Assembly (NCBI RefSeq): GCF_024323335.1
Contig: NC_066585.1
Location: 532,594,582-532,658,581 of the forward strand
Direction: 5' to 3'
Source: Lathyrus oleraceus
Taxonomy: Eukaryota > Streptophyta > Magnoliopsida > Fabales > Fabaceae
Length of the DNA: 64,000 bases
The notes below the pieces were generated by a model. The model was given only the letters and a program-made list of their open reading frames with translations. It was not told the DNA's origin and ran no database searches. The translations under genes and the position numbers were made by a program. Below, piece after piece: positions 616 through 62,590 of this stretch (its first letter is position 1; each line of letters begins with the position of its first letter).

Positions 616-680
616 TGTAGCGGTGTATTCGTTACTATATGATCTATTGGTTAAATCATAAGCAAAGCATACAATGAATA

Positions 681-4867: not shown

Positions 4868-4883
4868 TATCTATATATACCAA
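4868..4883 (-). promoter_or_regulatory. Probable TATA box of the Ogre LTR promoter (LTR 1 copy)
   Basis: Read on the - strand, GGTATATATAGATAAT lies about 1.15 kb inside the LTR. It is followed by a pyrimidine- and CA-rich leader with phrases such as tctctcattttctcc. This would make U3 about 1.15 kb long and place the transcript start about 30 bases further left, near 4840. The same box lies at about 16431-16440 in LTR 2 and 34092-34101 in LTR 3. No mapped transcript supports it here. Confidence 0.55.
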
Positions 4884-6017: not shown

Positions 6018-6030
6018 GATGCCCCTATTT
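6018..6030 (-). promoter_or_regulatory. Polypurine tract of element A
   Basis: On the - strand AAATAGGGGCATC directly abuts the TGTAAG start of the 3' LTR, the position expected for the plus-strand primer of reverse transcription. The X and Y elements carry the related tract AxxGGGGCAGC next to their own LTRs. Confidence 0.8.
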
Positions 6031-7423: not shown

Positions 7424-7427
7424 GGGT
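7424..7427. other. Internal deletion junction in element A (GGGT microhomology)
   Basis: Element A passes directly from sequence equivalent to B 18981-18987 (tccgggt) to sequence equivalent to B 25089 onward (tgtacctgaac). In B both breakpoints carry GGGT (18984-18987 and 25085-25088). The deletion removes about 6101 bp: the protease half of gag-pro, the integrase remnant and most of the 3' repeat region. Confidence 0.9.
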
Positions 7428-17577: not shown

Positions 17578-17590
17578 GATGCCCCTATTT
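17578..17590 (-). promoter_or_regulatory. Polypurine tract of element B
   Basis: AAATAGGGGCATC on the - strand abuts the TGTAAG of LTR 2, identical to the tract of element A. Confidence 0.8.
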
Positions 17591-29838: not shown

Positions 29839-32800
29839 TGTAGCGGTGTATTCGTTACTATATGATCTATTGGTTAAATCATAAGCAAAGCATACAATGA
29901 ATATAGAGTCGCCACCGCACTTTTATTTATCCTAAGGACTGGTTAAAAAGCGAACAAAAACCTAAGAAGTTTTACACGTAGAAAACTAATAAAAAGATCA
30001 GAGATCGGGGTAAGGGGTAAATTACGCAATGGGAAGGTGTTAGGCACCCAATGCGTCCTAGGTACTCCTAGGGAGCCCTTTTCACACTTGTTGTTTGAAA
30101 ATATTTATTTGTTTTTTGACATAAGTATTGTGCAAACATGATTGGGATGATGAGGAAAGAATGTACAAATTAATTATTTTTGTGTTCGAACGGATGAACC
30201 CGTTGCCTACGTACCTTCCATCAAAGGTAAGGATCAAAACGCCGTAGTTCGGCTAAAAACTTCCAAAAGTTAGTGGATTCAATTTTAAAACAAAAGCTCA
30301 AAGGTCTTACGTTACCCACGGGAGAAAACTCAACCTTGTATAACAACTAGTCCACCATGTGAGAAAAGCTTCCACTTGCCAGAGAGGGGTTAACCCTATA
30401 ATAGGCAAGGAAGACTTACAATTCATCTACTAAGGACAAATAGGTGAGATTAATATCAACCAACTAGGGTAAATCAAACCTACAGCTAATGTATGAAAAC
30501 TTAACAAACATGGACAAAGCCACAAAATCATTTGAATGGGTGAAGTTATTTGGATTATTTACAAAAAGGTCAAAGTATGATTAAAGTCAATTCAAAATGA
30601 AGTATTTACAAAAATGAAGTTTGGAAAAATCATGGACTTAAGGTCCAAGTTTCTAATTTGAAAAGAAGGTGAGAATGTTTGCACAACACTTATTTCAAAG
30701 TTTTAACATGTGTGAAAAGGTAGGACACAATGGGGTGAATGGATAATGGTGGAATGTAATACTTCTTAGAAGGGTCCACCTCTTGAAATCATATAGAAGA
30801 TGATTCAAGTGGGTCCTTAGGAATAGGCTACAAATGAGCAATGAACATGGTAACAGATGAAAGTAAATAAAAGCGGATACTGGATGCCACTCAATGGTCT
30901 TATACCTGTCTCCTAAAACAAGTAAGGATATCAGAAGCCACTCTATGGACTTACACTAATCTCCATCAGAATACAACAAAAACAAAACGGGGAAGTCAAC
31001 TGCCAATCTATCTGGACTTATGTTAACCTCCACAGTATGATCCTAGGAAAACAAATGCCACATCACAGGGACTTACAATGAATCCTCACATACAACAATA
31101 AATGCACCAGGCAATGGGTATGAGTGACCAATGAGGTCTTACACTCTACCCCTTCCATGTCATGGGAACAGATGCCAGCTTACAGGGACTTATAACTGGT
31201 TCCTCAATGGGTAATCAAACAAATCACATAGGTATGAAATAATGGACATGCTACAAGGAGCGATGAATGATATTAAATGCACTAAGGCAAGCAAGCAATC
31301 ATGTACAAATGAGTAATAAATCACAAATAGTCATGTAGCACACTCTATAGCCAAACAAGGAGGCTCAATCAAAAGGGTTTGACTATGAAAGTCCACTGTA
31401 ATAGGTAAGTGTCGCTCTTAACCTGGCCATTGAGAGGCTCAGGTGAAGCAGATGAAAGGATATGAGGGGTGTGCCTCATTGCTTCTATCTCAAGTTCGAG
31501 AGAGCATGTAAATATAAGAATGTGGGGGAGTTCAGAAAGATGGAACTCTTTCCCCAATTAGACTCGATAGATCTTGGGCTTGGATCTCAATGCTACAACC
31601 ATGTAATGGGAGCAAGGAGAAGACTCACTGAATAGTGGGAGATAGGCTACTTATCTCTACCTTCCACCAATTGCCTCAAATGAGGACTTTTCCTGCTTGG
31701 GACAAATATAAACATACACAATCAATGCCTCTTAAGGAGGACTTCAGACAATTTGCCCGGTCAAATAACAGACCGGGTCTCCAGACTACATGAAGAAGAA
31801 GGTGCAATACCTCAATGCCAATTGCTATTTAAGCAAAGCAATGCAAGTTCTTAAGAGAACTGAGCAACTAAAGGGTACCTGGAAACGATCAAGTATAATC
31901 AGCATCCCATTCATAAACAGATAACAACATAAGAATCAATTAACAAAGCACAATTATACAAATAATGATGTGCATAGCACAAGGCTCACATGAACCAAAA
32001 TCCTACAAAACAAGTTGGTTAGTGTATAAGTCAAGTGACACAATCCAAAATGTGGAGCAAATCCCTTAATCATTATCTTTAACCTGAAAAGGCACAATCA
32101 CACTCAAATGTAAGTACTATGACCACTAGGACTAGCCTAGGGTCAAAAGGATGGAAAAATCCTAAAACAGCAACCAATTCATGATCAAAATCAAGTTATT
32201 TCTATAACAAAGGGATCCCAATTGGTCCCATATTCAAACTATGCTCCTATTTTAAATTATGCAACTTGGAAGGCAAAAGGTGCAAACATGGATCACATAT
32301 GAATGGCCAGAATGATTACATCCAAAAAAATATCAAAACAACACAGTAAATTCCATAAAAATTATATCCTAAATAGAGGACATTCAACAAGCTACATGTC
32401 AATTTTCAAGCAATTTGGATTAGTGGAACTATGGGAATTAATTCAACATGTCAAAGCATGCAAAAACGCAACCAAATAAGGTCCAAAAATATGCACCAAC
32501 TTCAATTAAATGGTAAACAGTAATGGTACATGGGAAATTAGTAGGACCAAAGCCAAATGCAAGCTTAAGGTGTCAAAAACTACTCTACCAAATTTCATGG
32601 TCATTGGATAAAGTATGCGGATATGGCAGCATATATACAAAGGTGTCACCAACAAGGTCCAAAAAATGATAGGCAGAATATAAAATTCCTAATCAATTTG
32701 GAAATGGATTGTAAAAATCCACAAAAATTCACAGTGAATATTAACATGTTAATGGTGCTACATGCAAAAAAATTAAGGCCATTGGCCAAGGGGAAGCATG

Positions 32801-35239
32801 GTAAAAAATTCAGGGAACACAGCATATCACATTGTGTCACATATTTCCACACTCAAGTTCAATAATTCATAGCTAAAAGCCCAGAGGTCCAAAAAATGCA
32901 AATCCTATGTCAAAAATTCCATAAATGAGTTAAGATTCTACATCTAAAATTCAATTAATTTGGATTATGTATGGTGATTATATAATTAAAATGGTGAGAC
33001 ATGTGAATTTTGTGTACATTAGAAAAATCTCTATGGCAATTAAATTTTTCACCAAGCAACATTTTATTTTTTTGATTCTATAAAATAATAGGGAAAAAAA
33101 AGAAGATTAACAAAAAAACCTGAATTTATTTGGATTATTATTGGTGGTTTTATGATTTTTTGAAGATTTAAATAATTTATTGAATAATTATTTAATGTTA
33201 ATTAGGATTAAATATTGCAGCAGTGGCAGAACCGTGAATATCTAAGCCAAGCCAAGAATGCACAGTGGCGTTTTAATGTGGTGGCGGCTTCTAACTGGTC
33301 CATGCTAGCGCCAAACTGAGATTTGAAAATGGCCAGGAAGTGAAGTGGATTGAACGCAGCAAATTCCCAGAATTTCTCGTTCTTCACCGCATGTTCATCG
33401 CAAGCTCCAATGCCAGCTTCGGTCACGGGAAAATCTTCACCAAATCGTGCGAACCTTATACCGTTGGAATCGTCTCGCCGTGTACATCTCAACTATGTAA
33501 TCAATTCCACCTAACTCCTAACACAGCTCACGGATCGATCGAATAAAGGTTTCGCGTCAAAGCTTCGAGTTCGGATTTCTCAACCTATAGTCCACCGTTT
33601 CACAAACCGAGCCTAGCATGATAAACTACATCTAACAAACTACCACACGCATATGAACATTTATCAATTCTTGAGATTCGAAAATTTACCGTCGTTTGAT
33701 GACAGTGATGAATCGTGAGGTATTGGCGTGTGAAAGTCAAAAACAGTTGCAGAATGATCTTCCAGGAGTTGAATGCTATGCTCAAATTCAATCGAAATTG
33801 CTTCTAATGCGCGAAAATCGAATTCACCATTGATGGAGCTTTCTTGGACAGTTGCGAATGGTGGCTCTTCTCGATTCAAACTTCCAAAACAGATGGAGTA
33901 GAGGATGGTGGAAGATCAACACAAAAGGAATTTCGAGAATTCGTCAAGAATTGGTGAAGTTTGATCAATTTTTGTGTGAAGTGTTCTTGGTGAAAGATGG
34001 AGAAAATGAGAGAATTGGAGAATTTCTCTTTTTGATTTTCTGTTGTGATTTGTGAATTATGATTAACCAATGCAATTCTGTTATAGATTATCTATATATA
34101 CCAAGCTTTTAATCCACCAATAAACATGATTAGTGAAAAAAATGGTAATTAGTGAAAATTGGCTTATGTGTGAATTTGCTTTTAAGCTCTTTTTTACTTA
34201 GAAGCACATTCTGCAGAATTTGGATACTTGAAACAAGTCCAAAATATCAATTGGGAGCTGTTGGTATTGGCCTCATTTGCAAATTCCCAATATTTCCAAA
34301 AATGGACCATTTTGCCCCTCTCCTTAAATTGATTCACTTCAAAAATGGCATTTTGCATGGAGCCTTTTCCAAAAAAATCCAATTATGCAACTTTGAAGTA
34401 CACATTAAATGGAGTTTGTGCATATAAAGAACTTGCATTTTGGATAAACCACGTGGTAGTTATGCCCTCCCGATTACGGGTCTTTTTTGAAATTCATCTG
34501 ATCATATCTTGCAAACCACACATTGGATTTTTGAGTTCTTGGACTTTTTGGAAAGGTGAGCTCAAGATCTTCAACTTTTATGTTGGACAAATTTTGATTT
34601 GAAGCTTTTATCATGAATTTATCTTGAGGGGAAAAACTTTCCATTTTGGGCAGCTGAGATTACAGGTCCATTTGCCACTTTGGGAAACTTTCTATCTGAG
34701 CTCAATTCCTTCAACCTTGACCTTTGAAATGACAAATGAAGTTTATATAGACATGAATGAGGTCTTTCTAACCAATTCCAGTCATCAAATCACTGATTAT
34801 ATGCACAGTTGACCACAGTTGACTTTTATTGACTTTTGTTTGACTGGGCCAAGTTCTGATGAATTCCAAGCCTTTTTCACATGAGACCTTGGTTCCAAAT
34901 GATACCACAAGTTATATGAACCTTTCATGAATGATCATGGTGTCCAAATTCTTCAAGAATGGCCACCATCTATTGCTCAAGGCCTGATTTGACTGTTTGA
35001 CTGATGATCGCTTCAGCTGCAAGAAACAAGGTTAGATGACAATATTTTTGTACTTTTGGTTAGTAAACACATGAAAAGCAATGATATACAAGTGCAATAC
35101 ATGCTTGGTGATCAAGAATCACACTCACAAGGTATCCCACCCACTAAGAGGGAAGCTAGGGTATGCATTGATCCTTGAGGCCATGATATGATATGATATG
35201 GGCCATGAGGGATCTTAGGGCCAAAATTGGGGTCTTACA
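29839..35239 (-). repeat. LTR 3 (right; 5' LTR of element B)
   Basis: This LTR is 5401 bp, TGTA to TACA. Its private differences from LTR 2, found by eye, are near 31227 (G to C), 32551 (T to G), 32950 (one T lost), 33679 (T to C), 34375 (one A gained) and 34641 (T to C). On the - strand it would supply the promoter for element B. The candidate TATA box is at about 34092-34101. Confidence 0.95.
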
Positions 35240-35244
35240 GCAAG
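35240..35244. repeat. Target-site duplication, right copy (GCAAG)
   Basis: This follows TACA of LTR 3 directly and matches 611-615. Confidence 0.9.
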
Positions 35245-35700
35245 CATAAAACATCTCATGCATCATGACATTGCATGAGGCTAACGTTATTTTTCAGGTT
35301 AATTATCCTCTTGATACAATCAAAACAAAGGTCCATTCGGACAGACATCTGTATCAGTTACATTCAGGATTCAACTACACCTTTCAAATATACTCCATGT
35401 CAACATTCATTCTGGCATTCTCCCAATGGTGGCATCTCTAAGCCCACCCCAGATATTCTCTGCAAATATTATCAGATACAGCCTAACGTACGGTTCATTC
35501 TGATTCAGCCCAACATATGACTCTTTCAACTCAGATACGGTCTAACGTACGATCCATTCTGACTCTCAGCAACTCCAATACGGTCTAACGTACGACCCAT
35601 TTGGACCTCCAGCTCAGATACGATCTAGCGTACGATCCCTTCTGATCTTCAACGACTCAAGTATGGTTTAATGGACGACCAAGTTAAACCTTCATTTTCT

Positions 35701-36148
35701 CAGGTGCTACCTTCGGACAGGTACATTCCTGAATGGTAGTCTAGTATACGACTACTCCCTTTCTCAGGTGCTACCTTCGGACAGGTACATTCCTGAATGG
35801 TAGTCTAGTATACGACTACTCCCTTTCTCAGGTGCTACCTTCGGACAGGTACATTCCTGAATGGTAGTCTAGTATACGACTACTCCCTTTCTCAGGTGCT
35901 ACCTTCGGACAGGTACATTCCTGAATGGTAGTCTAGTATACGACTACTCCCTTGCTCAGGTGCTACCTTCGGACAGGTACATTCCTGAATGGTAGTCTAG
36001 TATATGGCTACTCCCTTTCTCAGGTGCTACCTTCGAACAAGTACATTCCTGAATGATAGTTTAGTATATGGCTACTCCCTTACTCAGATGCTACCTTCGG
36101 ACAGGTACATTCCTGAATGGTGGGCTGGTATACGACTATTCCCTCTTC
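35701..36148 (+). repeat. 64-bp tandem repeat array in element X, about 7 units
   Basis: Units starting caggtgctaccttcggacag begin at 35701, 35765, 35829, 35893, 35957, 36021 and 36085, an exact period of 64 bp. The first four are almost identical and the last three drift (for example tatatggcta for tatacgacta). Tandem repeats in this place, between pol and the 3' LTR, are known in Ogre-like elements. Confidence 0.95.
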
Positions 36149-38784: not shown

Positions 38785-41700
38785 CTTATCAAGATATGCC
38801 AGGGTTGGATATCGATATCGTTGTGCACAAGCTACCGTTGAGAGCCGATTGTCCTCCAGTGAAGCAGAAGTTGCGCAGAACTCGGCCTGACATGGCGATG
38901 AAAATTAAATAGGAAGTGCAGAAGCAGTGGGATGCTGGTTTCCTTGCTGTCACTAATTATCCGCCTTGGGTTGCATACATTGTGCCAGTGCCGAAGAAGG
39001 ATGGGAAGGTAAGAATGTGTGTGGACTACCGGGATTTGAACAGAGCTAGCCCGAAAGATGATTTTCCATTACCTCACATCGATGTGTTGGTAGATAATAC
39101 AGCTCAATTCTCGGTGTTTTCTTTCATGGATGGCTTTTCTGGCTATAATCAAATCAAAATGTCGCCAGATGATATGGAGAAAACAACGTTCATTACACCG
39201 TGGGGCACTTTTTGTTACAAGGTGATGCCATTCGGTCTCAAGAATGCCGGTGCTACTTATCAGAGAGCTATGGTGACTTTGTTTCATGATATGATTCATC
39301 ATGAAATTGAATGCTATGTTGATAACATGATAGCAAAGTCCCAGACGGAAGAGGGGCATTTGGTAGATTTGGCCAAGTTGTTTGACCGGCTGAGACAGTT
39401 CAGACTGAGGTTGAATCCGAACAAGTGTACTTTCGGAGTGCGGTCCGGTAAATTGCTGGGGTTCATTGTAAGTGAGAAAGGAATCGAGGTTGATCCTGCT
39501 AAAGTAAAAGCAATAAGAGAAATGCCTGAACCGAGAATAGAGAAGGAGGTTCGTGGTTTCTTAGGTAGATTGAACTACATTTCACGGTTCATATCTCATC
39601 TAACAGCCACGTGTGAACCAATATTCAAGTTATTGAGAAAAGATCAAACGGTCAGGTGGAATAATGATTGCCAAGCGGCATATGAAAAAATAAAAGAGTA
39701 TTTGCAAGAGCCTCCGATTCTGATGCCTCCTGTGGAGGGAAGACCGTTAATTTTGTACTTGACGGTCCTCGAGGGGTCTATGGGGTGTGTATTGGGGCAG
39801 CATGACGAGTCTGGTCGAAAAGAGCATGCCATATACTACCTTAGCAAAAAGTTTACCGACTGTGAAACAAGATATTCACTGCTCGAGAAAACTTGCTGTG
39901 CTTTGGTCTGGGCTGCTCACCGACTGAGACAGTATATGCTGGTTTATACCACTTTGTTGATTTCCAAGATGGATCCAATCAAGTACATTTTTGAAAAGCC
40001 AGCATTGACCAGACGGGTTGCGAGGTGGCAAATGATTTTGACAGAATATGATATACAGTATACCTCTCAGAAAGCAATCAAGGGGAGTGTATTATCTGAT
40101 TACCCCGCCCAGCAACCTATTGAGGATTATCAACCGATGAAGTTTGAATTCCCTGATGAGGACATCATGTTTCTCAAATCGAAAGATTGCGAGGAACCAA
40201 TCCCGGAGGAGGGGCCTGACCCTGAATCCGAATGGATTCTGATGTTTGTTGGGGCCGTTAACATGAATGGTAGCGGTGTTGGTGATGTTTTGGTTACGCC
40301 GAAAGGATCCCACATTCCTTTTGCTGCCCGGCTAACATTTGAGTGCACCAACAACGTGGCTGAATACGAAGCTTGTATCTTGGGGATTGAAGAGGCGATT
40401 GATCTGAGGATCAAGAATCTTGTTATATATGGAGATTCAGCTCTGGTTGTGAATCAGGTTAACGGAAAATGGTATACGCATCAATCTCATTTAGTTCCAT
40501 ATCGGGACTATACGAGGAGATTGTTGACGTTTTTCAACAAGGTAAAGGTGCATCATGTGCTCAGAGAAGAGAATCCTTTGGCAGATGCTTTGGCTACTCT
40601 GGCCGCCTTGATTAAGGTACAGTGGTGGAATCAGTTCCCCAGTGTTGAGGTGGGACGTCTGGATAGACCGGCTTATGTGTTTGTTGTTGACACAACGCCT
40701 GATGATGAGAAGCCGTGGTATTACGATATCAAGCGCTACCTAGAGACTCAAGAGTATCCTGAGGGAGCATCCAAGAAGGACCGAAAGACTCTGCGGAGGT
40801 TGGCCATGGTGTTTTACCTGAATAAGGATGGGGTTTTGTATAAGCGGAATTTTGATTGGGTCTTGCTCAGATGTGTTGATGATAAAGAAGCAAGCCAATT
40901 GATGAAAGAGGTTCACGAAGGATCGTTCGGTACCCATGCCAGTGGGAATGCAATGGTGAAGAAGTTGCTAAGGGCAGGTTATTACTGGATGACAATGGAA
41001 GCCCAATGTTTCAATTTCGTGCGGAAGTGTCATAAATGCCAGATTTATGCCGACAAGGTGCACGTGCCTCCGAATCCGTTGAGTTTGATGTCGTCTCCGT
41101 GGCCGTTTGCTATGTGGGGCATTGATATGATTGGAAAGATTGAGCCTACGGCTTCGAATGGGCACCAGTTCATATTAGTGGCTATTGATTACTTCACCAA
41201 GTGGGTGGAAGCAACCTCTTATACGAATGTGACGAAACAGGTCGTTGCCAGATTTCTCAAAAGAGACATCATTTGCAGATATGGGGTTCCCGAGAGAATC
41301 ATTACTGATAACGGTTCTAATTTGAACAATAAGATGATGGCAGAACTGTGCCGGGAATTCAAGATCGAGCATCACAATTCTTCTCCTTATCGTCCGAAGA
41401 TGAATGGGGCGGTTGAGGCAGCCAATAAGAATATTAAGAAGATTGTGCAGAAGATGGTCGTGACCTATAAAGACTGGCATGAGATGTTGCCATTTGTATT
41501 GCATGGGTATCGAACTTCGGTGCGTATATCCACTGGGGCGACGCCTTTCTCTTTGGTATATGGAATGGAAGCCGTGCTACCAGTTGAGGTTCAAATTCCC
41601 TCTTTTAGAGTCCTGATGGACGTAAAATTGCAAGAGGCTGAATGGGTAAGGACCCGGTACGAAGAGTTGAGCCTGATTGAGGAAAAGAGGCTGGCAGCCA

Positions 41701-41966
41701 TTTGTCATGGGCAGTTGTACCAGCAGCGGATGAAGCGTGCTTTTGACCGAAAGGTACGACCTCGGGTATATCACGTAGGAGATATGGTGCTGAAAAGGAT
41801 CCTTCCTCCTCAAAACGATCGAAGGGGCAAGTGGACACCCAATTATGAAGGTCCGTTCGTGGTCAAGAAGGTTTTCTCTGGCGGAGCCTTGTTGTTGACG
41901 ACCATGGATGGCGAAGATTTTCTATCCCCTGTGAATGCGGACGCAGTTAAAAAATACTTCGTATAA
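38779..41966 (+). pseudogene. Polymerase (RT, dual RNase H, integrase) of element Y, inactivated
   Basis: This is a pol gene without gag or protease. The frame is open from within the X LTR through WSYQDMPGLD (about 38782), then meets a TAG at 38910-38912 where relatives have Glu. It continues for 1016 residues to 41966. RT motifs are present (VPKKDGKVRMCVDYRDLN, FMDGFSGYNQI, MPFGLKNAGATYQRAM), but the catalytic YVDD reads YVDN (codon 39324-39326, residue 137). A first RNase H is followed by a second, archaeal-type RNase H as in Tat/Ogre elements. Its FDGA reads FVGA (40248-40250), while AEYEA and GDSALV remain. Integrase keeps the HHCC zinc region (HEGSFGTHASG, CHKCQ), D (GIDMIG), D (TDNGSN) and E (NGAVEAANK). 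It ends GGALLLTTMDGEDF. RT is very probably dead. The 5' end is fused to the LTR of another family. Confidence 0.92.
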
Positions 41967-43989: not shown

Positions 43990-44335
43990 GCATTCAGGCC
44001 AGTTGTGGTATTCAGACCAGTTTCCGATTTCCAGATCAAAGAAGTTCTCAACAATCAGGACGAAGAACTTGTGGTATTCAGACCAGTTTCTGATTTCCAG
44101 ATCGAAGAAGTTCTCAACAATCAGGACGAAGAACTTGTGGCGCTCAGGCCCATTTCCGATTTCCAGATCGAAGAAGTTCTCAACAATCAGGACGAAGAAC
44201 TTGTGGCGCTCAGGCCCGTTTCCGATTTCCAGATCGAAGAAGTTCTCAACAATCAGGACGAAGAACTTGTGGCGCTCAGGCCCGTTTCCGATTTCCAGAT
44301 CGAAGAAGTTTCCAACAGATCATGTTGAAGTACTT
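43990..44335 (+). repeat. 66-bp tandem repeat array in element Y, about 5 units
   Basis: The marker gaagttctcaacaatcagg recurs at 44041, 44107, 44173 and 44239, with a diverged unit at 44305, an exact 66-bp period. Because 66 is divisible by three, all frames stay open across the array, which explains the overlapping open frames there. Confidence 0.95.
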
Positions 44336-44479
44336 GTGGCAGTCAGGCCAATCTTCCGGTAACCAGACCGAGGCGGGTATTCAAACCGATGTGGCACTCA
44401 GGCCCAGTTTCCGATGTTCAGATCGAATAAGCTTCCGAAGCTCAGGTCGATGCAGCTTGCGGCAGTCAGGCCAATTCCC

Positions 44480-50019: not shown

Positions 50020-52313
50020 AATATATATATATGAAAATTGTAATTTGGCTAAATTTTTATTTGAATAATGTATATTTATGATGTAAAATATCAAAATTAA
50101 TCGTTTAATTTATTTAAAAAATAATTTTAAAATATTTAAATATTTTTCAGAAAATCAAGAAAAAATCTAACATTCATAATTAGTTTGTTTATATTATTAT
50201 TATTATAAAAAAAACTTGATCAAATACATTCTATATCATAAATTAAATTGCTGGTGGGCTTAAATCCCTTTATAAACTAATATGCCAAGATGATATTTAT
50301 TTTCTTAAGAGTTTGTTTGGATAGTGTTATCTAAATACATCCAACTATGCAAATTTGTGTGTCAATGTGTTATTTACTTCGGTCACAAATTTGTCTAGGT
50401 AGTGTTATTTAGACACACATTGTTTGTAAAATTAAAAATATATTTAACCAATTAGTGATAACTTAAAACTATATATTCTAGAAATTAAGAATGTTAGATC
50501 CTTAACATTCTAAACTTTATATATAAAATAATGTCCCACTTAAATATATGGATGCTTCGGTGTTAGAATTTTTCTGATATGAATTTCTTTCAATTTAGAT
50601 TGACGTGTCAAACTCATATATCCTATCCAAAAAATGTCCTCCCATTTAATTATTTTGTCTTTGACATGACTTCTTCATTTTAAGGATGATCATGGTAGAG
50701 AACAATCTAATTTTAAATAAACTTGTATAAAATTCATAAATTTTGAAAGCCATTTAATTTATCTGACATGATTTTTGGGTGGATCACTTTGAAGTGGGAA
50801 AAAAGTTTTTAAAAAATCATATCTTATCAAATAAACACAAACTCTGTCATATGCATTTGCTACAAGATGATCAATTTCAGATAAACGCGTTCACTTTTCA
50901 TCTGATGCTTGATTAGTTCACTAGAAATTAAAGCATCATTAATTATATTGTACCGTTCTTTATGAATCTTCTTTATGGTTTGTTAACTCTTTGATAAGAT
51001 ATTGACAAACAAATATATGGTTCTCCTCTTCGAGACCTATCAAAGCTGAAATAACACAAACTATGTACTTACTATCAGCTTTAACATCTACAACTCCATC
51101 AATATATTTTTGCGTAAAAACAAATATCTCCTCGATATGTTTCAGTTTTGGCAAATGTGAGTTAGAGTTTTCTGTCTGAGCACCCTTAATAGATTTTTTT
51201 TGTGGGATTGTGAAATAGAGAATCTGAATAAAGTGATTTGGCATGCTCAAAATATGATTATGAGTGCTCGGTAGAAATACACTAAGAGATAGTTTGACCT
51301 TCTTAAAAACACCCTTAGTTTTTACCGATTCTATGGGAGATTTCATATTAGTGGTTTCTGAAAAAGCTATCTTGTGTGTATGTTATTTGATGTGTAGGTT
51401 CATTATATAACCGCCTTAAAAAAATATCTCTTAAATCACTTCTCATTCTAACATAATAGAAATATTTGATTTACCATCCTTAATTATATCATTATCATCA
51501 TCAAACCAAAGTCTTTTCCAATGCGTATTTATCTCATCCACACATACAGGTCTATCGATTTTCATCTTCTTAACTATTACACAAGCACAAGAAAAATCGT
51601 ATGTTCTTCTAAGTGTACAACCACGTTTGGAGCTATCTGGACCTATTTTCTATTCTTGCACTGTTTCATGATAGATAAAGTTTAATCCTAAACGAGATAT
51701 ATTACTAGTCAACATTGGATACAATTTTTTTGTCCTTTAGTTTACGTTATAATATTAATATGCTTTGACCAAATGATATATGTTATTCTACATATCAATC
51801 ATTTTAGTGACAAATTTACAATATTACTACTAGAAAGTTTATATAATTTATCTTAAATTAATAAAATACTTAACACTTAACACCGTTGTAACACATCATT
51901 TTTATTAATAGAATTTAGATTAAATAAATTAAAATTTATACATTACATAATTATTCATTTGATGCATCAATCATTCATCAATAATTTGTAAATTAATTAT
52001 CATAACACTTCTCATAATTATATTTATTTTTGTGTGACTAATATTTTTTTATGTGATATAATAGGATATTGAGAAAAAGAAAGTTTTTTGAAAGACTAAG
52101 AGAAAAGGAGTCTAATCGTTACCTTTTCAATCTAGAGAAGAGGGTAGCAACATTGCAAAAAATAGCAGACCGCATATTGGCATTCAACTCTAAGCAAATC
52201 GTATGTCTTAACTTTATATATATATATATTATATATATATATTATATCTATATATATATATATCTATATATATATATAATATATATATATATAATATATA
52301 TATATCTATATAT

Positions 52314-52364
<51 letters not shown>

Positions 52365-52485
52365 ATATAGATATATATATATATCTATATATATATAATA
52401 TATAATATATATATATATTATATATTATACTATATATATATATATATATATAGATATATATATAGAATATATATATATATAATAG

Positions 52486-52519
<34 letters not shown>

Positions 52520-52529
52520 TATATATATA

Positions 52530-52591
<62 letters not shown>

Positions 52592-53688
52592 TATATATAT
52601 ATATATATATATATTCTATATATAATATATTTATCTTATATATAGATATCTTTATATAGATATATATATAATATTTATATATATATATATATATATATAT
52701 CTTATATTTATATATTTGTTTAAACATAAAAATTATTTATATGTATTTAATTAAAGGTAAAAGTATGACATTATAATATTAAATTATTATTATTTATTTA
52801 TTTTAAAGACATTCATAAAATTATTATTAGTATCATTTTAATTAATAATAATATTTTATATTCTACTATTATAAAAAATATTTATATAATATTATAATAT
52901 TATATAAATTTGTGATTAAAAATAAAATGATTGATATGATAACATTTGTATTTCTATTTTTTATGATAGAGAAATATTATGAAACACAATGCTAAGCTCA
53001 ATAAATTAAGATTGAAGGTGCAAACTGCGATGGAGCTTAACCGCTCGCGAGAAAGTAAGTTTCTATGGTAAAAAATTTAGACCAATGTTTTGTCATATTT
53101 TTTCTTTTTCTAATTTTACAAAATACAAAAATTAATATGTGATAGATAAATTGTCACATAAAGATTCATTTGCAATGAATAATTTAAAATCATTGCAAGA
53201 TTGTCGATGTTTATATATAACATACCTTTATATATCAAAAATTAATATAATTTAATTGCGTGTATTTAAATTGTCTAATTCATAAGTGGATTTAATCTTT
53301 TGTTGATTCATGAGTTGTTTTTCTTAGGTTAATTTGTAACATGTTCTCTTCCATTAAAATAATATTGCACAATATTATTAATATAAATGTTATTGAACAC
53401 ATTCAATATAAATGGGTATGTGGGTTGTCAGTCTTATGTAATTATCCATATTATAGTAATATTTTTTATTTATTTATAGTAATGCTTAATGCTATGAAAG
53501 AGGAAATAAAAGATATTTTGCGTCTACAACTTTTAAAAGAATTGGGGCATGAATACAATGATGAGACCATGCATGATGACGAGGAAGAGGAAGAAGATGA
53601 GGATAAGGTCATGGAAGATGACGAGGAGGAAGAGGAAGAAGATGAGGATGAGGTCATGGAAGATGACGAGGAAGAGGAAGATGAATAG
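49439..53688 (+). CDS. Divergent group-I-like bZIP protein with acidic tail (4 coding exons, 188 aa)
   Basis: Coding exons are 49439-49575, 52065-52200, 52970-53054 and 53480-53688, with GT..AG introns and matching phases. The sum is 567 nt, ending in TAG. The protein would be a nuclear DNA-binding or dimerising factor. Residues 37-48 (ALTDPKRARRIL) match the conserved lead-in of plant group I bZIPs (VIP1/RF2-like, normally ALxDPKRAKRILANRQSA). The basic region then degenerates: the invariant Asn is Lys50 and the following residues are KFFERLREKE, with Arg58 retained. A leucine zipper follows (LEKRVATLQKIADRI, then NAKLNKLRLKVQTAMELNRSRE), continuing the family pattern. Residues 147-188 are nearly all Asp/Glu in repeats of EDEDxVMEDDEEEE. 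The loss of the key Asn suggests altered or no DNA binding, perhaps a dominant partner for true bZIPs. It could also be a decaying paralogue, but no frameshift or stop is seen. Confidence 0.75.
49940..50032. repeat. Interrupted (TA)n microsatellite in intron 1
   Basis: This is a nearly pure alternation of T and A with a few breaks (ctta, aataat). It can fold on itself. Length is likely polymorphic. Confidence 0.9.
50960..51680 (-). pseudogene. Decayed MULE-type transposase/OTU-domain fragment
   Basis: A 128-residue open frame (51346-50960) ends with VVDVKADSKYIVCVISALIG and EEENHIFVCQYLIKEL. This resembles the OTU-like cysteine-protease domain that follows some plant MULE transposases (typically VxDVxxDGxCGFR..GxxEExxxxVRxxLIKEL), but the DGxCGFR active site is destroyed. 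Further upstream on the same strand, about 51640-51500, another frame reads RRTYDFSCACVIVKKMK and THWKRLWF. This is like the C-terminal SWIM-type end of the transposase and linker. Stops and frame changes separate the pieces. It is a remnant inside intron 1, antisense to the bZIP-like gene. Family identity is from motif memory only. Confidence 0.6.
52201..52969 (+). other. Intron 2 of the bZIP-like gene with long (TA)n tract
   Basis: The intron runs AAATC|GTATGT to GATAG|AGAAAT. Most of 52216-52700 is TA dinucleotide repeat. Open frames through this tract (52069-52398 +, 52536-52727 -) are Ile/Tyr runs and are not protein genes. Confidence 0.7.
52216..52700. repeat. Long (TA)n/(TATC)n microsatellite, about 480 bp
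   Basis: The tract is alternating T and A with occasional C or G (ctatatag, tatcta). Such tracts mutate fast and are hard to assemble, so the length given here should be treated with caution. Confidence 0.95.
53055..53479 (+). other. Intron 3 of the bZIP-like gene
   Basis: The intron has donor GAAA|GTAAGT (a strong consensus) and acceptor TTTATAG|TAATG. It is AT-rich, with no other feature seen. Confidence 0.7.
53566..53688 (+). repeat. Coding tandem repeat for the acidic tail
   Basis: Two and a half copies of a unit of about 54 bp (gatgacgaggaagaggaaga...gaggtcatggaa) encode DDEEEEEDEDxVME. The period is a multiple of three, so copy-number change keeps the frame. Confidence 0.85.
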
Positions 53689-54589: not shown

Positions 54590-54622
54590 CTAGCGTCCAA
54601 ACGGGCACTCCGTGCCCGTTTG
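54590..54622 (-). mobile_element. Helitron-like 3' end: hairpin plus CTAG (family 1)
   Basis: On the - strand a perfect 11-bp stem (CAAACGGGCAC / GTGCCCGTTTG, 3-base loop, 54598-54622) is followed after a few bases by CTAG, and then T. A hairpin just inside a CTRR end and insertion between A and T are the hallmarks of Helitrons. The element body would extend to the right. Its 5' end was not identified, and no Rep/helicase gene is present, so it is non-autonomous if real. Confidence 0.55.
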
Positions 54623-55670
54623 TCCACTTTTTTTATTGCGCTAACGCATGAAAATATTAACCGTTTCTCTTTTTATAAGTTTGATTTTAATATAAATTAT
54701 TTATATGATGAAATATGGTATTTATTTAGATACATATTAAATTTTGTTTGCAATGTAATATTTTTTGTATTAAATTTTGTTTGAATTGAAAAAACCGCAT
54801 TGTGACGTGACGTTATTCAACCGTTTTTTTTCAAACAAATCAATAATGTGAGTGGAATAATTTGGTGACTTGGAATACCGTATTATGAAAAAAGAAAATA
54901 GGTGACACCAAAATTAAGTTTTGTTTTTATATATTGTTATAGATTGTTCAAAACCATAACAAGATTTAGATAAAATAAGAAAAATATGTTTCTCACAGTT
55001 TATTAAGCAAATAAACATAAACTTTAAAAGAGAAATATTAAGTAACATGGTTGCTTAATAGGAAGGTCAACCATATAATCAAAATCAGAACTCTCTCTCC
55101 CTCTTTTCTCTTTTTTCTGCTATGTGCATCATATAAAAACCAATCAACAACATGTGTATTTGGTTATTAAGTTATCCTTATGTACGCGTGTAATGTTATT
55201 TTGAAAGCGAATTTTATAAGCAATTATGAAAGCAACACAATAATCTCCCAGTATACTTGTTAATTCAATAAACAATCTTTTGAAAAGATAAAAAAAAAAC
55301 ATATAAGAAATAAAAAGGATTACATAATTTCTTCCCTTTATCTCTCTCCGTACACATTAACATCTCCCTCATGTTAAAAACTAAGATTTTCAATAAAACT
55401 TTAAATTATAGTTTTCACTTATTATATGCATAATCCATTCTTGCTCTCTTTTTTCAGTTCAATTGAAATGAACTAGTTTTCCATGACAACATTTTGTAAA
55501 AAACAGTATATTTGAGAGAGAGTTGTTTTGAAAAATTAATGAGAGTAGTTATAGATGCAATTACGGTTTTTTATATAAAATAACTGATTGATTATTCTTT
55601 TAATGAAAGTTGAGGGTAATTAAGGAATAAATTAAGATCATACTAAAATTTTGTATTCGCTTTATCTATA
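54623..55670 (-). mobile_element. Body of the family 1 Helitron-like element and AT-rich sequence
   Basis: The first 230 bp (gctaacgcatgaaaatatt, tataaattatttatatga, cattgtgacgtgacgtta) have a clear second copy at 62360-62590. The remaining sequence to 55670 is AT-rich with nothing else recognised. Confidence 0.45.
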
Positions 55671-56026: not shown

Positions 56027-56043
56027 AGTCACTACGCCAAATA

Positions 56044-56476
56044 AGGGAAAAGAGGGCGCTTATTTTGGCCTATAACAGCGCTTTTAAGCGCCCTCTAAAG
56101 TGGCGCTGGCATAGGTAAAGACAGCGCTTTGTTTTCCTGGAGAAAGCGCTGTCTAAAGTGGCCACATTATAGTGCGCTTTCAGAAAAAAACGCCCTCTGG
56201 AATGGTCCATAAAGGGACACCTTAGAGGGCGCTTTCTGGAAAAAGCGTCCTCTAAAGTTGTCAATGTAAAGTGTTTAGAGGGCGCTTTCAGGAAAAAGTG
56301 CCCTCTAAAGTTGTCAATGTAAAGTGTTTAGAGGGCGCTTTCAGGAAAAAGCGCCCTCTAAAGTTGTCCATGTAAAGTGTTTAGAGGGCGCTTTCAGGAA
56401 AAAGCGCCCTCTAAAGTTGTCAATGTAAAGTGTTTAGAGGGCGCTTTCTGGACAAAGCGCCCTCTAAAGTGTTAGT
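56044..56476. repeat. Left sub-terminal hairpin array of the CACTA element
   Basis: From 56224 a 53-bp unit repeats about five times (agagggcgct at 56224, 56277, 56330, 56383 and 56436). Each unit holds the inverted repeat agagggcgctttc / gaaaaagcgccctct and the linker aagttgtcaatgtaaagtgttt. Diverged units extend left to the terminus. Sub-terminal repeats are where CACTA DNA-binding proteins dock. Confidence 0.9.
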
Positions 56477-56850
56477 TATTTTAAAAAAATTTGTTTGAAA
56501 AACAGTGTATATTTAATTGGTAACCTGTTCGCATGCTGCAAAAGTGTAAAATTCATATTGATTTCATCCTTTAATCCAATGTTATACACCATTAATCCAT
56601 TGATATATACAACATGAATCCATTTATATACAACATTAATCCTCCATATATACAACATTAATATATGATTCTTTGATCAACAATATACAACAACATATTC
56701 ATGATTTAGTAAAAGTACAACAACAATATACACTATTAGTCTCGAAAGATCCATAGCAACCAACACCCAGTGACCACTGTATCCAAAAGTTGTCTAGTAG
56801 TTCTAACAATACTAAACAAAATAACGCCCATCCACCCATGATGAATAATA
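56477..56850 (-). other. Non-coding part of the CACTA element
   Basis: This contains a degenerate repeat of 'atatacaacattaatcca' (56575-56665). No gene is seen. It lies between the ARGONAUTE fragment and the left sub-terminal array. Confidence 0.5.
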
Positions 56851-57589
56851 GCAAGTGTGCATAATAGGCAGGAGGAACTGCATACAAGATAACATTTTTG
56901 TTAAACTAAAGTTTTGTATAGCCTAAAACAAAAACAAGCAAAGGGAATCGAGTAACAAACCTATTGAGACAGATCGAGTACACCTCGCATAACTGAATGG
57001 AAAAAAATAGTATCAGAAGGCTTCTAAAATTAAATGAAAACAGTACAAGTTTAGAAAACATTAATTAAGATTAAAAAAGCAAATCATATCATTACGTTTA
57101 GCACAAGTTATTGGTCAAACTCTGTAGCTGGTCTGCAGTGAATTTATTTTCATCATACAGCACATGATAATGCGTTGGTCGACTAGTCCCCTGCAAAAAG
57201 AACACGTCCAAATGCAAATAACACAGAACTGTCAAAAGGCGATTGAGCAACAAATAGTAAACAATGGCATAAAGTTAAATGACATAGCTAATATTACCTG
57301 AATTCCTGCATGGCTGTTAAGGTAAAAATCAAATTCCCTTGGGTGACAAATGCTGGTGTCTACCACGGTTCCTTTGACAATTTAGAACAACAAAATCAGC
57401 AAAAAGCGATAAATTCAAATGATAATATATACCAGCTGCGTTGAGAAATATATTGAAAAAACCTGGCATAATATTTCCACTTCTATCGGTCTCTTTGGGG
57501 TTGACAGGAAAGAGACGGGTGTGATGTCTCTTTTGGACCACTACAAAAGTAACTTTAGGTAGATACCCATCCTCTATTGAGACACAAGC
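56851..57589 (-). pseudogene. Captured ARGONAUTE PIWI-domain fragment (AGO5/AGO1-like), five exons with introns
   Basis: On the - strand five exon-like pieces bounded by GT..AG read through the C-terminal PIWI domain of a plant Argonaute. 57589-57463: [37 protein letters not shown]. 57371-57298: [24 protein letters not shown]. 57190-57096: [30 protein letters not shown]. 56992-56961: YARCTRSVSI. 56877-56851: VPPAYYAHL. Phases match across all junctions. THYHV is the segment that carries the last catalytic histidine in active Argonautes. The EDGYLPKV start suggests the AGO5 branch of the AGO1/5/10 clade. A TAA (57098-57100) replaces the expected Tyr codon after NNLC. PAZ, MID and the first half of PIWI are absent. 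It lies on the same strand as, and downstream of, the transposase, and so is a host gene fragment taken up by the transposon. Confidence 0.9.
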
Positions 57590-57591
57590 CT

Positions 57592-57685
57592 GATGAAAAA
57601 AAATTAGTTGGTCTTCAGCACTCCAATGTACTTCAAATTTTACACCCTTGTCTCTTGCACGAATGATTGACTTCATAATAGCCAT
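57592..57685 (-). pseudogene. Start of a second CACTA ORF, truncated at the ARGONAUTE insertion
   Basis: The frame [29 protein letters not shown] opens at 57685 and runs without a stop into the ARGONAUTE exon. Its pattern (RxxKGVKxxVxW) resembles the N-terminal part of the second protein encoded by plant CACTA elements (Ptta/En/Spm type), normally several hundred residues long. I infer that the captured sequence replaced the rest. A splice acceptor (ttttcatcag) sits at the joint, so spliced and read-through products are both conceivable. Recognition is tentative. Confidence 0.45.
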
Positions 57686-57808
57686 TTTACCTGTAATAAA
57701 GAAAACAATTAAAATCAGATGACAAATGTAAAAACAATTAAAATCATAAAAGTCATTTTACCTGTAATAAAGAAAACAATTAAAATCATTTGACCTGTAC
57801 CTTTTTCA
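57686..57808 (-). repeat. Short direct duplication in the CACTA element
   Basis: 'ttttacctgtaataaagaaa' followed by 'acaattaaaatca' occurs at about 57688 and again at about 57757, a 69-bp offset. It lies between the transposase stop and the second ORF. Confidence 0.7.
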
Positions 57809-60800
57809 CTAAGTTCTCTTTCTTTTCTTGGTTGGAATATGTTCTACATGTCTCTTAACAACACGGACGGTTAGATTGATCCAAATACCCTCATTATGAT
57901 CATTTCTAATATATGAATCATTTGATATAATATTCTCATCTTGATCATTTCTGGTAAACGATTCAATCTCAACATCAATATCACCTTGATCTCCAGTGTT
58001 TTCATCAATTACTTTGTTGGAAAAAAGAACTATAGACCATTTCGTACTTTTCAAATCATTGACATAGAACACTTGTCTAGCTTGAGAGGCTAGAATAAAA
58101 GACTCATCTTTGTATCCCACCCTATTAAGATCCACTTGCAAAAATCCTGACTTATCCATTCGAATGCCGTTATTATTTTCAACCCACTTGCAACCAAATA
58201 TAGGAATCTGAAACTTCTCATAATCAAACACCCAAATGCGCTCGATAACACCAAAATACGACAGATTTGCAAATTTGGGGTTTAAGTCCTTCACACTTGA
58301 TATGTGCATTGCTTCAGCTACCACGGTGACACCACTATTCTGCATAGTACTTTTATCATGTTGTTCTTTGGTATAAAATGTGTATCCATTAATCGCGTAT
58401 GCGCTATAAGAAAAAACATGGAAACTTGGACCATATGCTAAGCATCTCAACCTTTCTGTTATTGAAGCGGGATCTGAATAATACTTTGAATAAATATGAT
58501 CCTTAACCAAGGTATAAAACATCGATTGTGCTCTCGTACTATCCAATTTTCATTTCTATTGGGATTTAAACCTCGGAGAACATCCTTGTGAATTTCAACA
58601 TACGGCTCAACCTCATTCTCATTGTGCAGAACATACAAATGCACTTGATCCCGTTCGACCCTTGATACTGCCACGATTTTATTTCCAATTAGATTTTTTC
58701 CTTCTTTCTTTTCGACAAGCTGAGACTTGGGGAGTCCGATTGACTGAACATTAGACAAATATTCAGTACAAAACTCAATCGCTTCTTCAACAATGTATCT
58801 TTCAACCATACAACCTTCTGGTCGACTTCGGTTCTTCACGTACCCTTTTAATATTTTCATATAACGTTCAACAGGGTACAGCCATCTCATATAAGCTGGT
58901 CCGCACAATTGTGTCTCTTTCACAAGATGAACAACTAGATGTACCATTATGTCAAAAAATGATGGAGGAAAAAACATTTCAAGCTCACACAAAGTAATAA
59001 CGATTTCTTTTTGCAACATTGGTAAGATCGCAGGATTGATCACCTTACTGCAAATTGACTTGAAGAAAGAACACAACTTAGTTATAGAGCTTCTTACTTT
59101 TTCTGGAAGAATAGAACGTATACCTATTGGGAGAAAATGTTCCATTATAACATGGCAATCATGGGTCTTTAAACTCTTTAACTTGAGGTCTTTCATAGAC
59201 ACAAGTCTTCTAATATCTGAAGAGTACCCTTCTGGAACTTTAACTTCACTTAGAAACTTACACAATGTTTTTTTCTAGATAGAGTATAAGCAGCAGGAGG
59301 TAGATATGTTCGTTTTCCTTTCTTCAAGGGTCCTAATTCAGTTCTTATTCCCATCGCTATCAAGTCCTTTCTTGCCTTAAGGCCATCCTTAGACTTTCCT
59401 TGTATATTGAGTAACGTGCCAATAACACTTTCAAATACATTTTTTTCAATATGCATAACATCAAGAAAATGTCTCACATACAAGGACTTCCAATACGGAA
59501 ATTCAAAAAAAACTGACCTCTTCTTCCACCCACTTTTGACAAGTGTGTGGGCAAAAGGCTTGCCAAACTGAGTATCCAAATCTTTCACCTTTTCAAAAAT
59601 TTGATCACCCGTCAATATAGGTGGAGCTCTGCCTTGTTCTGTCTCTCCATTGAACGCCTTTCTCCATCCACGGTAGTGATGATTTGAATTTAAGAATCTC
59701 CGATGACCGAGAAAGACATTCTTCTGACCAAACTCCAAGCGCTTCCAATCTGTTTTATCTTCACAAATAGGACACGCACATTGACCTTTTATGCTATACC
59801 CTGATAGATTTCCGTATGCTGGAAAATCATTAATTGTGCCAAACAACATCGCCCTCAAGTTGAAACTTTCTTTCCTATATCCATCATAAACCTCCACACC
59901 GGTCTCCCACAAAATCTTTAAATCTTCGATTAAGGGCTTCAAGTACACGTCTATGTCATTCCCTGGTTGTTTAGGTCCAGAAATCAACATAGACAACATC
60001 ATGTACTTACGCTTCATACATAGCCATGGAGGTAGATTATAAATCATAATAATCACAGGCCATGTACTGTGTGAGATACTCTGGATACCGTGTGGGTTCA
60101 TTCCATCAGTAGATAATGCCAAGCGAAGGTTTCTTGATTCTTCTCCAAATTCAGGATAATCATTATCAATTTTCAACCACTGTGGTGAATCTGCCGGATG
60201 TCGATACTTTCCATCTATAATTCTTTCATCTGCATGCCAGGTCAAGTGTCTTGAATCGGTTTCACTACGAAACATGCGTCTAAATCTCGGAATAACAGAA
60301 AATACCACAAGACTTTTGCTGGAGACAACTTGTTCTTATATCGCGAGACACCGCATTTAGGACACTCATTTAACGATGCATACTCATTTCGAAACAAAAC
60401 GCAATCGTTTGGACATGCATGTATCTTATCATAGCTCATGCCAATAGAGCACAACATCTTTTTGGTCTCATATGTTCGATTGGGAAGAACATTATCCTCA
60501 GGAAGCATATCTTTCAAAAGGGCTAATAACTCTGTGAAACTTTTATCTGACCACCCATTGCCCGCCTTTAAGTTGTACAACTTTAATACCGCAGACAATC
60601 TTGTGAATTTAGTGCAACCATCATACAAAGGTTTCTCTGCATCACTTACCAACCTCTCAAACATTTCGGGACAATCCTTAAGATCTCCTTCAAGTGCTTC
60701 TGCAATCTCTTCAACTCGATCACAATCGTATGTATCTGCGCCACTATAGTTTGAGGCATAGGTCGTACTATCCCCCGGTTCAACATTATCGTTACTTTTC

Positions 60801-61024
60801 TCACCATGCAAATTCCGACATGTATAACTTCGATCAATTCCATGCCTCATTAGATGCGATGTCAACTGAACTGCGTCAACCCGTTTCCCATAACAACAAC
60901 CCAAGCAAGGACATATCATTCTACTGGGGTCTTCGGCGTGCGCAACGACAAACTTAACGAATTCTGATACCCCATTCTCGTACTCTCTCGACAATCGATT
61001 GGAAGACATCCATGTATTATCCAT
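57809..61024 (-). pseudogene. CACTA TNP2-type transposase with three frameshifts
   Basis: This is a full-length transposase gene in four frame segments. Segment 61024-60242 starts MDNTWMSSNRLSREYENGV and carries the transposase-associated Cys/His region (CPCLGCC, HLMRHG). Segment 60308-59250 is the Transposase_21 core (LALSTDGMNPHG, GPKQPGNDIDVYLKPL, CACPICED, HFLDVMHIEKNVFESVIG). Segment 59265-58459 is the DUF4218-like part (VIMEHFLPIGIR, FFPPSFFDIMVHLVVHLV). Segment 58546-57809 is the DUF4216-like part (YFGVIERIWVFDYEKFQIPI, FGCKWV) and ends KKRKRT. Frame breaks lie near 60300 (after LSPAKVLWYF), near 59268 (in an A-run) and near 58530 (after CFIPWL). Each can be explained by a one-base indel. 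I saw no in-frame stop inside a segment. Introns were not resolved, but the breaks do not look like splice sites. The protein would bind the element ends and catalyse cut-and-paste in the nucleus. This copy is unlikely to encode it. Confidence 0.9.
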
Positions 61025-61462
61025 TACTAATTAGAATAAACAAAAAACAATTTCAGAAGAGTTCAAACACATTCGGACCTAGGTTTCTAATGATACTGGT
61101 GTTGACACAAAATCATATGTTCATAGGTCGTATAACCCATTGCATCCGCTATCATGGTCACTAAAAACCAACCGTCAATTTCCTATTGCATCCGCTATCA
61201 TGGTCGAAACAAACGTAGAAGGAGGAAACGCGCAGTAATAAGGTAAAACAGAAATTGGGCAAAGCTAAAACAAAGCAATAACATAAAACAGAAATTGGGA
61301 AAAGCGTGTACCTTTGATTGGTAGAAGGAGGAAACGCGCATGTAGATCTAACAGAGGTGGAAGGAAAACGCCTCAGAATCCTAACGTGAAAAAGAACGCT
61401 AATAACAGATAGTGAAATAACAAAACGCGCAGTATGTTATAATTTTAATGTTTACTAAAGGG
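61025..61462 (-). promoter_or_regulatory. 5' region of the CACTA transposase gene
   Basis: This is about 440 bp upstream of the transposase start, with no gene. It contains two copies of 'ttgcatccgctatcatggtc' (about 61139 and 61185) and two of 'aaaacagaaattgg' (about 61247 and 61285). Any promoter must lie here or in the adjacent repeats. No clear TATA box is seen. Confidence 0.4.
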
Positions 61463-62040
61463 GACATTAGAGGGCGCTTGTGGAAAAAAAGCGCCCTCTA
61501 AAGGGGGCCTAAGAGGGCGCTTATGAAAGCGCTCTCTAAGGCTTTCCAGAAGCGCTTTATAAGCTGGAAATGCACGTGGACTTATAACAGCGCTTTATTA
61601 AAAGCGCCCTCTAAGGGTAACCTTAGAGGGCGCTTTCTAAAAAGCGCCATGTATTGTTGTCCCTCTATCTCCTCCTTATTTTTTTCGTTTCACCTTAGAG
61701 GGCGCTTGTGGAAACAAAGCGCCCTCTAAAGGGGGCCTAAGAGGGCGCTTATGAAAGCGCTCTCTAAGGCTTTCCAGAAGCGCTTTATAAGCTGGAAATG
61801 CACATGGACTTATAACAGCGCTTTATTAAAAGCGCCCTTTAAGGGTAACCTTAGAGGGCGCTTTCTAAAAAGCGCCATGTATTGTTGTCCCTCTATCTCC
61901 TCCTTACTTTTTTGCTTCACCTTAGAGGGCGCTTTGTTACAAAAGCGCCCTCTAAAGTGCGCTGTCTATTGCTCCTTATTTTTCGCTTCACTTTAGAGGG
62001 CGCTTTTGTAATAAAGCGCCCTCTAAGGTGCGTTGTCTAT
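61463..62040. repeat. Right sub-terminal hairpin array of the CACTA element
   Basis: Two copies of a 228-bp unit (for example atgaaagcgctctctaaggc at 61522 and 61750) contain several agagggcgct/agcgccctct inverted pairs. Two further single hairpins follow before the terminus. Open frames through the unit repeat the same peptide and are not genes. Confidence 0.9.
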
Positions 62041-62062
62041 TCCAGTTTTTGGCGTAGTGAGT

Positions 62063-62335: not shown

Positions 62336-62590
62336 CGGGCACGTTTGTCCGCTTTTTTTTATTACGCTAACGCGTGAAAATATCAACGTCTTTTTTTATA
62401 AGTTTGATTTTAATATAAATTATTTATATGATAAAAAATATGATATTTATTCATATGCATATTAAATTTTATTTATAATATATAGTATTTGCACATTAAA
62501 TTTTGTTTGAATTGAGAAAATTGCAGTGTGACGTGACTTTATTTAACCGTTTTTTTTCAAGCAAATCAATAAATAACTCAATGTATAAAC
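62336..62590 (-). mobile_element. Second copy of the family 1 Helitron-like sequence (end damaged)
   Basis: This matches 54605-54840 in order (cgtttgtccgctttttttatt, split at 62343-62364; gctaacgcgtgaaaatat; tataaattatttatatgat; gtgtgacgtgactttattta), with about 10-15% difference. Only the inner part of the terminal hairpin (acgggcac gtttg) remains, and CTAG is absent. Confidence 0.55.

Follow-up and report, generated by a model that had tools for sequence, protein, structure and literature searches.

A 3'-end segment of pea AGO5 inside ORF2 of a multicopy CACTA transposon family

Five exon-like blocks resembling the C-terminal part of the Argonaute PIWI region lie between the ends of a CACTA element in the pea genome. 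The question raised by this locus is whether they belong to a genuine Argonaute gene or to a transposon that has taken up a piece of one, and what such a piece could mean for its source. The blocks are located in a 64-kb stretch of contig C7 (hereafter the window), and a genome of 3.795 Gb was searched; pea (Pisum sativum, taxid 3888) is listed under its NCBI name, Lathyrus oleraceus. With high confidence, the locus can be read as the result of a single AGO5 capture, followed by CACTA spread and deletions, in which, as coding sequence, the AGO5 piece behaves as a neutral passenger and any activity would most likely be exerted via RNA.

The PIWI blocks and the CACTA element

All five blocks are encoded on the minus strand. 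Pfam Piwi is matched by the frame containing block A (57589-57463; 6.2e-8), by block B (57371-57298; 1.1e-6, with 28.5 bits against a cut-off of 28.9), and by block C (57190-57096; 3.5e-11). Block D lies at 56992-56961, and the truncated block E (VPPAYYAHL) runs from 56877 down to ~56849. The junctions between the blocks are of the GT..AG type and share the phase of the donor gene described below; the Pfam matches of frames A to C and this comparison bear out the initial annotation, which had described five C-terminal PIWI exon blocks in matching phase. Its broader label, AGO5/AGO1-like, can be narrowed to AGO5: the best match of the joined blocks is a pea protein named argonaute 5 (99%), which also removes the suspicion that they resemble Argonaute no better than other proteins. 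Among PDB entries, they match a chain named argonaute 10 (1.5e-61).

The blocks form part of a captured AGO5 genomic segment (56849..57606, minus strand) that is 97.1% identical to positions 4334-5083 of the donor locus (L023, reverse complement). The end of the AGO5 3'UTR (donor 5396-5464) is found at 56777..56843 on the same strand and reaches the common 3' breakpoint discussed below. Sequence of the element itself, likewise on the minus strand, borders the captured pieces: the ORF2 start (57607..57685), which continues as ORF2 in the related copies L014, L012, and L025, is fused to the AGO5 intron tail, and ORF2 resumes at 56728..56776 with a Ulp1-like stretch (GHWVLVAMDLSRLIVYIV), the joined L014 counterpart of which matches Peptidase_C48. 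The interval originally assigned to the Argonaute fragment (56851..57685) is accordingly AGO5-derived at ~56849-57606, with 56777-56843 to be added, while ~57607-57685 (~79 bases) is an ORF2 exon and not Argonaute. A duplication with 71-bp spacing (57666-57794) is present at the ORF2 acceptor site and start, providing two candidate AG acceptors.

The Argonaute content of the window copy is confined to AGO5 residues 822-939, and the copy does not comprise the N, PAZ, MID, and full PIWI parts by which a functional Argonaute gene was defined. Its exon C carries a stop codon (TAA at 57098-57100), where TAC is found in 7/7 other fetched CACTA copies read at this position. A fusion beginning with MAIMKSII and continuing into PIWI sequence corresponds to a database entry of 188 aa named argonaute 5 (P0001); this entry is a transposon piece bearing the name of the host gene.

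The surrounding element spans 6030 bp (56030..62059), with its genes on the minus strand. Its 12-bp terminal inverted repeats (TIRs) start with CACTACGCCAAA at 56030 and terminate with TTTGGCGTAGTG (reverse complement) at 62059, and a target site duplication (TSD), AGT/AGT, flanks it at 56027-56029 and 62060-62062; the intact termini and target duplication noticed initially are thus corroborated. Subterminal repeats occupy 56086..56471 at one end (AAGCGCCCTCTAAAG type; repeat families D1 and D3) and 61489..62030 at the opposite end (D2-D4). ORF1 consists of minus-strand transposase pieces matching Transpos_assoc (60242..61030; PF13963, 2.9e-16), Transposase_21, i.e., tnp2 (59250..60335; PF02992, 8.4e-94), DUF4218 (58459..59274; PF13960, 1.9e-41), and DUF4216 (57809..58549; PF13952, 1.1e-20). 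CACTA-type TIRs, a 3-bp TSD, subterminal repeats in two orientations, and a tnp2-type transposase together identify the element as CACTA (En/Spm). All four fetched elements with both ends located have 3-bp TSDs, each of them different (AGT, CCT, CTG, ATT).

In the relative L012, ORF1 is a single 944-aa frame, whereas in the window element it is distributed over four stop-free frames, so that either the gene is broken there or introns account for part of the splitting. In the shorter L014 and L024, a long transposase frame is absent, and nothing in these two relatives aligns to the transposase region. Pack-CACTA elements in the strict sense carry host fragments and lack the transposase gene; the window element, which retains transposase remnants, falls outside this class.

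A 240-bp repeat (54611-54846 and 62336-62572, 85% identity) flanks the CACTA element on both sides, with GGGCAC/GTGCCC palindromes nearby, and is perhaps a small non-autonomous element. Direct copies at 616-7427, 12177-18987, and 29839-35240 (99.8-99.9% identity) are separated by gag and DUF7745 frames and probably constitute an LTR retrotransposon (616-35240) in the order LTR-internal-LTR-internal-LTR. On the plus strand, 38913-41963 is open over 1017 aa and encodes reverse transcriptase, RNase H, and integrase domains. Tandem arrays occur at 44003-44358 (66-bp unit, 5.4 times) and 35696-36144 (64-bp unit, 7 times), and the majority of the long inverted repeats reported around 52215-52715 lie over a TA-rich dinucleotide tract of ~500 bp at these positions.

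Donor gene, breakpoints and copy number

From 137 Piwi matches genome-wide, 20 stretches were chosen by hand; they comprise 13 CACTA copies, six further AGO loci, and L023 (on C7), an AGO gene that lacks CACTA ends and contains ArgoN, ArgoL1, PAZ, ArgoL2, and Piwi in order. Its joined exons, some of them taken from the upstream neighbour L029, match the 986-aa pea 'protein argonaute 5' at 98% and AGO5 proteins of Vicia faba, Vicia villosa, and Trifolium at 84%, 80%, and 75%, respectively. Judged by sequence, the donor is this complete AGO5 gene on C7 (L023/L029), the splice junctions and phase of which agree with those of the captured blocks; L023 could, however, be closely related to the true donor allele rather than identical with it. 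As a host fragment is present in the element and its donor remains elsewhere, the case qualifies as transduplication. A tree of PIWI fragments, in which 2 of 17 inner branches were starred, did not assign the donor to a clade, and the full-length comparison gave AGO5.

The captured consensus differs from the donor by substitutions at 5/498 exon, 10/539 intron or 5' flank, and 9/240 UTR bases. At one residue the captured copies encode Ser and the donor Cys; as Ser is also found in the Vicia and Trifolium proteins, the donor probably acquired its Cys later than the capture. A further pea protein named argonaute 5 (P0041) matches a captured piece and has the Ser of the capture at this position.

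The longest copies (L014, L024, L038, and L046) contain donor bases 4188-5464, i.e., 1277 bp with five exons, introns, stop codon, and 3'UTR; the exons encode residues 822-986 of the 986-aa AGO5. In 38/38 examined copies, the 3' breakpoint is at donor base 5464 (14/14 copies compared first, 20/20 hand-picked from 100 listed junction places, all on C1, and 4/4 from a search with the ORF2 side). The 5' ends of these 38 copies, derived from alignments and thus subject to an error of a few bases, are at 4188 (n=4), 4210 (n=15), 4334 (n=10, the window type), 4348 (n=5), and elsewhere (n=4). The segment is located between the N-terminal ORF2 exons and the Ulp1-like ORF2 end, in the sense orientation relative to ORF2. 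The Ulp1-like end matches Peptidase_C48 at 28.1 bits when the L014 pieces are joined (cut-off 20.7) and at 17.1 bits, under the cut-off, when they are not; a Pfam search with the N-terminal ORF2 piece gave no match.

At one join, the donor reads TTTTTGGATGCAG and the joined sequence TTTTGGATACAG; the other side reads AATACTGC with a 7-base filler. Both joins show short stretches of matching bases, which are suggestive of template switching in gap repair. The 1277-bp 3'-end segment of pea AGO5 would have been copied once into the CACTA ORF2, possibly along this route; as an AGO5-free ancestor was not found, we infer both the replaced sequence and the repair mechanism.

The several 5' ends (4188, 4210, 4334, and 4348) could point to independent captures, but the one 3' base common to 38/38 copies and the differences from the donor that copies share (e.g., 14/14 at three sites) make this hardly credible. 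The same low credence applies to a transfer from the transposon to AGO5: the captured region is present in Vicia and Trifolium AGO5 proteins, and the AGO5 gene is therefore the source. A real AGO gene at the locus with CACTA ends from other elements, the objection foreseen in the initial annotation, or a misassembly is contradicted and has no supporting point that we found, as only the last PIWI part is present, the TIRs agree, as do the two TSD copies, the identical join is found hundreds of times, TSDs differ between four elements, and P0045, a pea protein that likewise passes from AGO5 into ORF2 at its end, comes from a differently sized contig (563422397). The original proposal of an Argonaute fragment captured inside one CACTA element is upheld by the TIRs and TSD, the separate complete donor AGO5, and the shared 3' breakpoint.

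The initial annotation had also suggested looking for further CACTA copies with the fragment, and ~770 were found. A 34-base pattern across the 3' junction occurs 767 times genome-wide with at most two mismatches (381+386), and the reversed pattern 0 times. A 50-base exon A piece is found 733 times with at most three mismatches (control 0); the donor, being identical over this piece, should be among them. The window-type 5' junction occurs 157 times genome-wide (control 0). In a search with 851 bases, 40 of 785 candidates were scored, and all 40 match at 99-100% across at least 849 bases. The AGO5-bearing lineage would have reached this number by ordinary CACTA transposition, and the 3-bp TSDs of the four elements with both ends located indicate that they moved as units. 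The donor identity, the ~770 copies, and the neutral coding variation described below go beyond what the initial annotation could see.

Relatives without AGO5 were sought from the ORF2 side. With at most three mismatches, the ORF2 side alone occurs 749 times genome-wide, no more often than the AGO5 junction. Of the 87 such places listed on C1, 80 coincide with an AGO5 junction, four were fetched and bear AGO5, and three lie beside AGO5 hits; no AGO5-free sister or ancestor was found among these close relatives. The absence of AGO5-free members in the ORF2 lineage could reflect more than passive hitch-hiking.

Deletions, fusions and variation after the capture

The shorter copies would have arisen by internal deletions that removed pieces of the captured segment, the window copy being one such derivative; exons C-D are missing in many copies. 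In 15/15 copies of the 4210 type, a deletion joined an ORF2 intron to an AGO5 intron, which produced a hybrid ORF2-AGO5 intron of 161-162 bases (GTACTTACC...TTTCATCAG or near). Exactly this intron is absent in 5/20 sampled copies (L030, L032, L034, L040, and L047), in which ORF2 continues in frame into AGO5, and the intron-free exon-exon fusion is found 116 times genome-wide with at most two mismatches (control 0). A deletion from ~4748 to 5297, covering exons C-D, is common to the five intron-free copies and 11/15 copies of the 4210 type, so that the former probably derive from the latter.

That the intron was lost exactly by copying a spliced fusion RNA back into DNA has about even odds. The competing explanation is a chance deletion between two CAGG microhomology sites: both ends of the intron carry CAGG, and this pair is among 379 matching pairs (4 bp or longer) in a stretch of 762 bp that could produce deletions of 100-250 bp. 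Retention of the exon A-B intron in 5/5 intron-free fusion copies argues against a simple cDNA. If the RNA route is true, the ORF2-AGO5 fusion was transcribed and spliced.

Variation among the copies gives no sign of constraint on a protein. Based on 45 distinct coding changes in 34 of ~770 copies, there are nine synonymous changes, 35 nonsynonymous changes, and one stop, where 333:1098:63 are possible (Fisher P 0.86 for synonymous versus nonsynonymous, stops excluded). Variant density is similar in exons (45/10128 copy-bases) and in introns with 5' flank (41/11464; P 0.33), and pairwise divergence among the 34 copies has a mean of 1.1% and a maximum of 2.8%. With this neutral coding variation, no kept protein function is visible, and the AGO5 piece resembles a young, neutral passenger, which it would be as coding sequence under the single-capture reading. 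Canonical splice dinucleotides are present at 191/192 readable sites in the 38 copies. Changes of the C>T or G>A type affect 20/131 CG and CHG sites versus 28/336 CHH sites (P 0.04), an excess that is a weak hint of methylated copies.

Possible effects on AGO5 and related cases

The AGO5 piece lies in sense within ORF2, so that transcripts could be spliced into ORF2-AGO5 fusions; any activity would most likely be exerted by such spliced fusions and by small RNAs pairing perfectly with AGO5 mRNA. The initial annotation had suggested, tentatively, that transcripts or small RNAs from the piece could act on the host Argonaute gene. By analogy with what has been proposed for Drosophila TART-A/nxf2 and rice miR820/DRM2, small RNAs from AGO5-bearing copies might repress AGO5 in the germline or meristem to the benefit of the element, which we consider unlikely. 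In favour of it, the window copy holds 212/478 21-mers of the captured donor CDS (with 0 in common with eight other AGO loci), and the 38 copies together hold 463/718 21-mers and cover 669/738 donor mRNA-part bases, as compared with 0/1130 for an upstream control. The lack of AGO5-free sisters among the 87 listed C1 places also speaks for such an effect, and the CG and CHG excess is weakly consistent with it through methylated copies. AGO5 is enriched in Arabidopsis stem cells and its maize orthologues act in male gametogenesis, and passages of the same source discuss it as an anti-transposon factor in both settings (PMC11997658). These passages also report, to the contrary, that unstressed Arabidopsis mutants of those AGOs show no obvious transposon release (PMC11997658). 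A single fold of 56841-57606, which would reveal a fold-back like that of miR820, has a z-score of 0.16, and 9/20 shuffles fold at least as well; there is thus no whole-fragment fold-back signal. Antisense RNA would require an extra step given the sense orientation, captured and donor sequences are little diverged, and copies go on losing AGO5 sequence by deletion. The longer chain, in which fusions would be spliced in pea germ cells, the junction copied back (116 copies), and AGO5 lowered by small RNAs from ~770 copies, with weakening of a restraining Argonaute, is rather improbable as a whole.

An effect at the protein level, i.e., an ORF2-PIWI chimera that disturbs AGO proteins or is of use to the transposon, is very improbable. 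In-frame forms do exist (the 188-aa P0001, the 157 window-type junctions, and the 116 exon-exon fusions); a start is read in 9/10 window-type copies, and the frame is open through exon A in six of them (window, L011, L015, L027, L039, and L041); in L021 it is open but truncated. Against this, L036 and L043 are frame-shifted, the changes among copies are neutral, many copies have lost exons C-D, and exon C of the window copy contains the stop. Moreover, the window piece begins past three of the four positions of the Argonaute catalytic set, as judged from the motifs located in the sequence. With an effect on AGO5 that is putative and copies that lose AGO5 sequence, the single-capture reading is best classed as passenger capture with a possible RNA effect.

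Comparable elements are known. In soybean, Zabala and Vodkin reportedly described in 2007 a CACTA element whose gene fragments are spliced into novel combinations of exons; the pea case would resemble it in that captured exons keep their splice sites and differ in the genes captured. Another parallel is a rice CACTA, in which pre-miR820 is derived from OsDRM2 (five copies are described in Nipponbare) and which, like the pea element, carries part of a host silencing gene, exons and introns included, and multiplies along with it (PMC3459959). In rice, the RNA acts back on DRM2, whereas a counterpart acting on AGO5 in pea is putative; rice has a fold-back miRNA against DRM2, whereas pea has AGO5, five exons inside ORF2, and ~770 copies, with no fold-back signal from the whole fragment. 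Drosophila TART-A likewise carries part of a silencing-pathway gene (nxf2), and in both cases the carrying form makes up most or all of the copies seen; unlike TART-A, a retrotransposon with piRNAs, degradome, and population data (PMC7785250), the pea element is a plant DNA transposon. Chenopodium CACTA elements also contain host gene fragments, and ORF2 is described there as open to intrusion, but those fragments lie upstream of ORF1 (PMC8978399), whereas the pea AGO5 fragment lies inside ORF2 and is fused to it. Host gene fragments within CACTA are also shared with the Pack-CACTA elements treated in a 2026 review of plant gene capture, the main text of which has CACTA passages and contains neither 'argonaute' nor 'AGO' (PMC13317346). 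In the open-licence literature, no description was found of an AGO gene captured by CACTA or of the pea AGO5-bearing family.

Among the pea gene models annotated as argonaute 5, some are pieces of the transposon, and AGO counts may therefore be inflated. The exact loss of the hybrid intron may preserve the trace of a fusion transcript that had been spliced. The pea family is a clear natural case in which pieces of a host Argonaute gene are carried by a transposon family several hundred times over, and as the donor, the breakpoint, and the order of deletions are known, it becomes directly testable in a crop whether transposons take up silencing genes in order to evade silencing.
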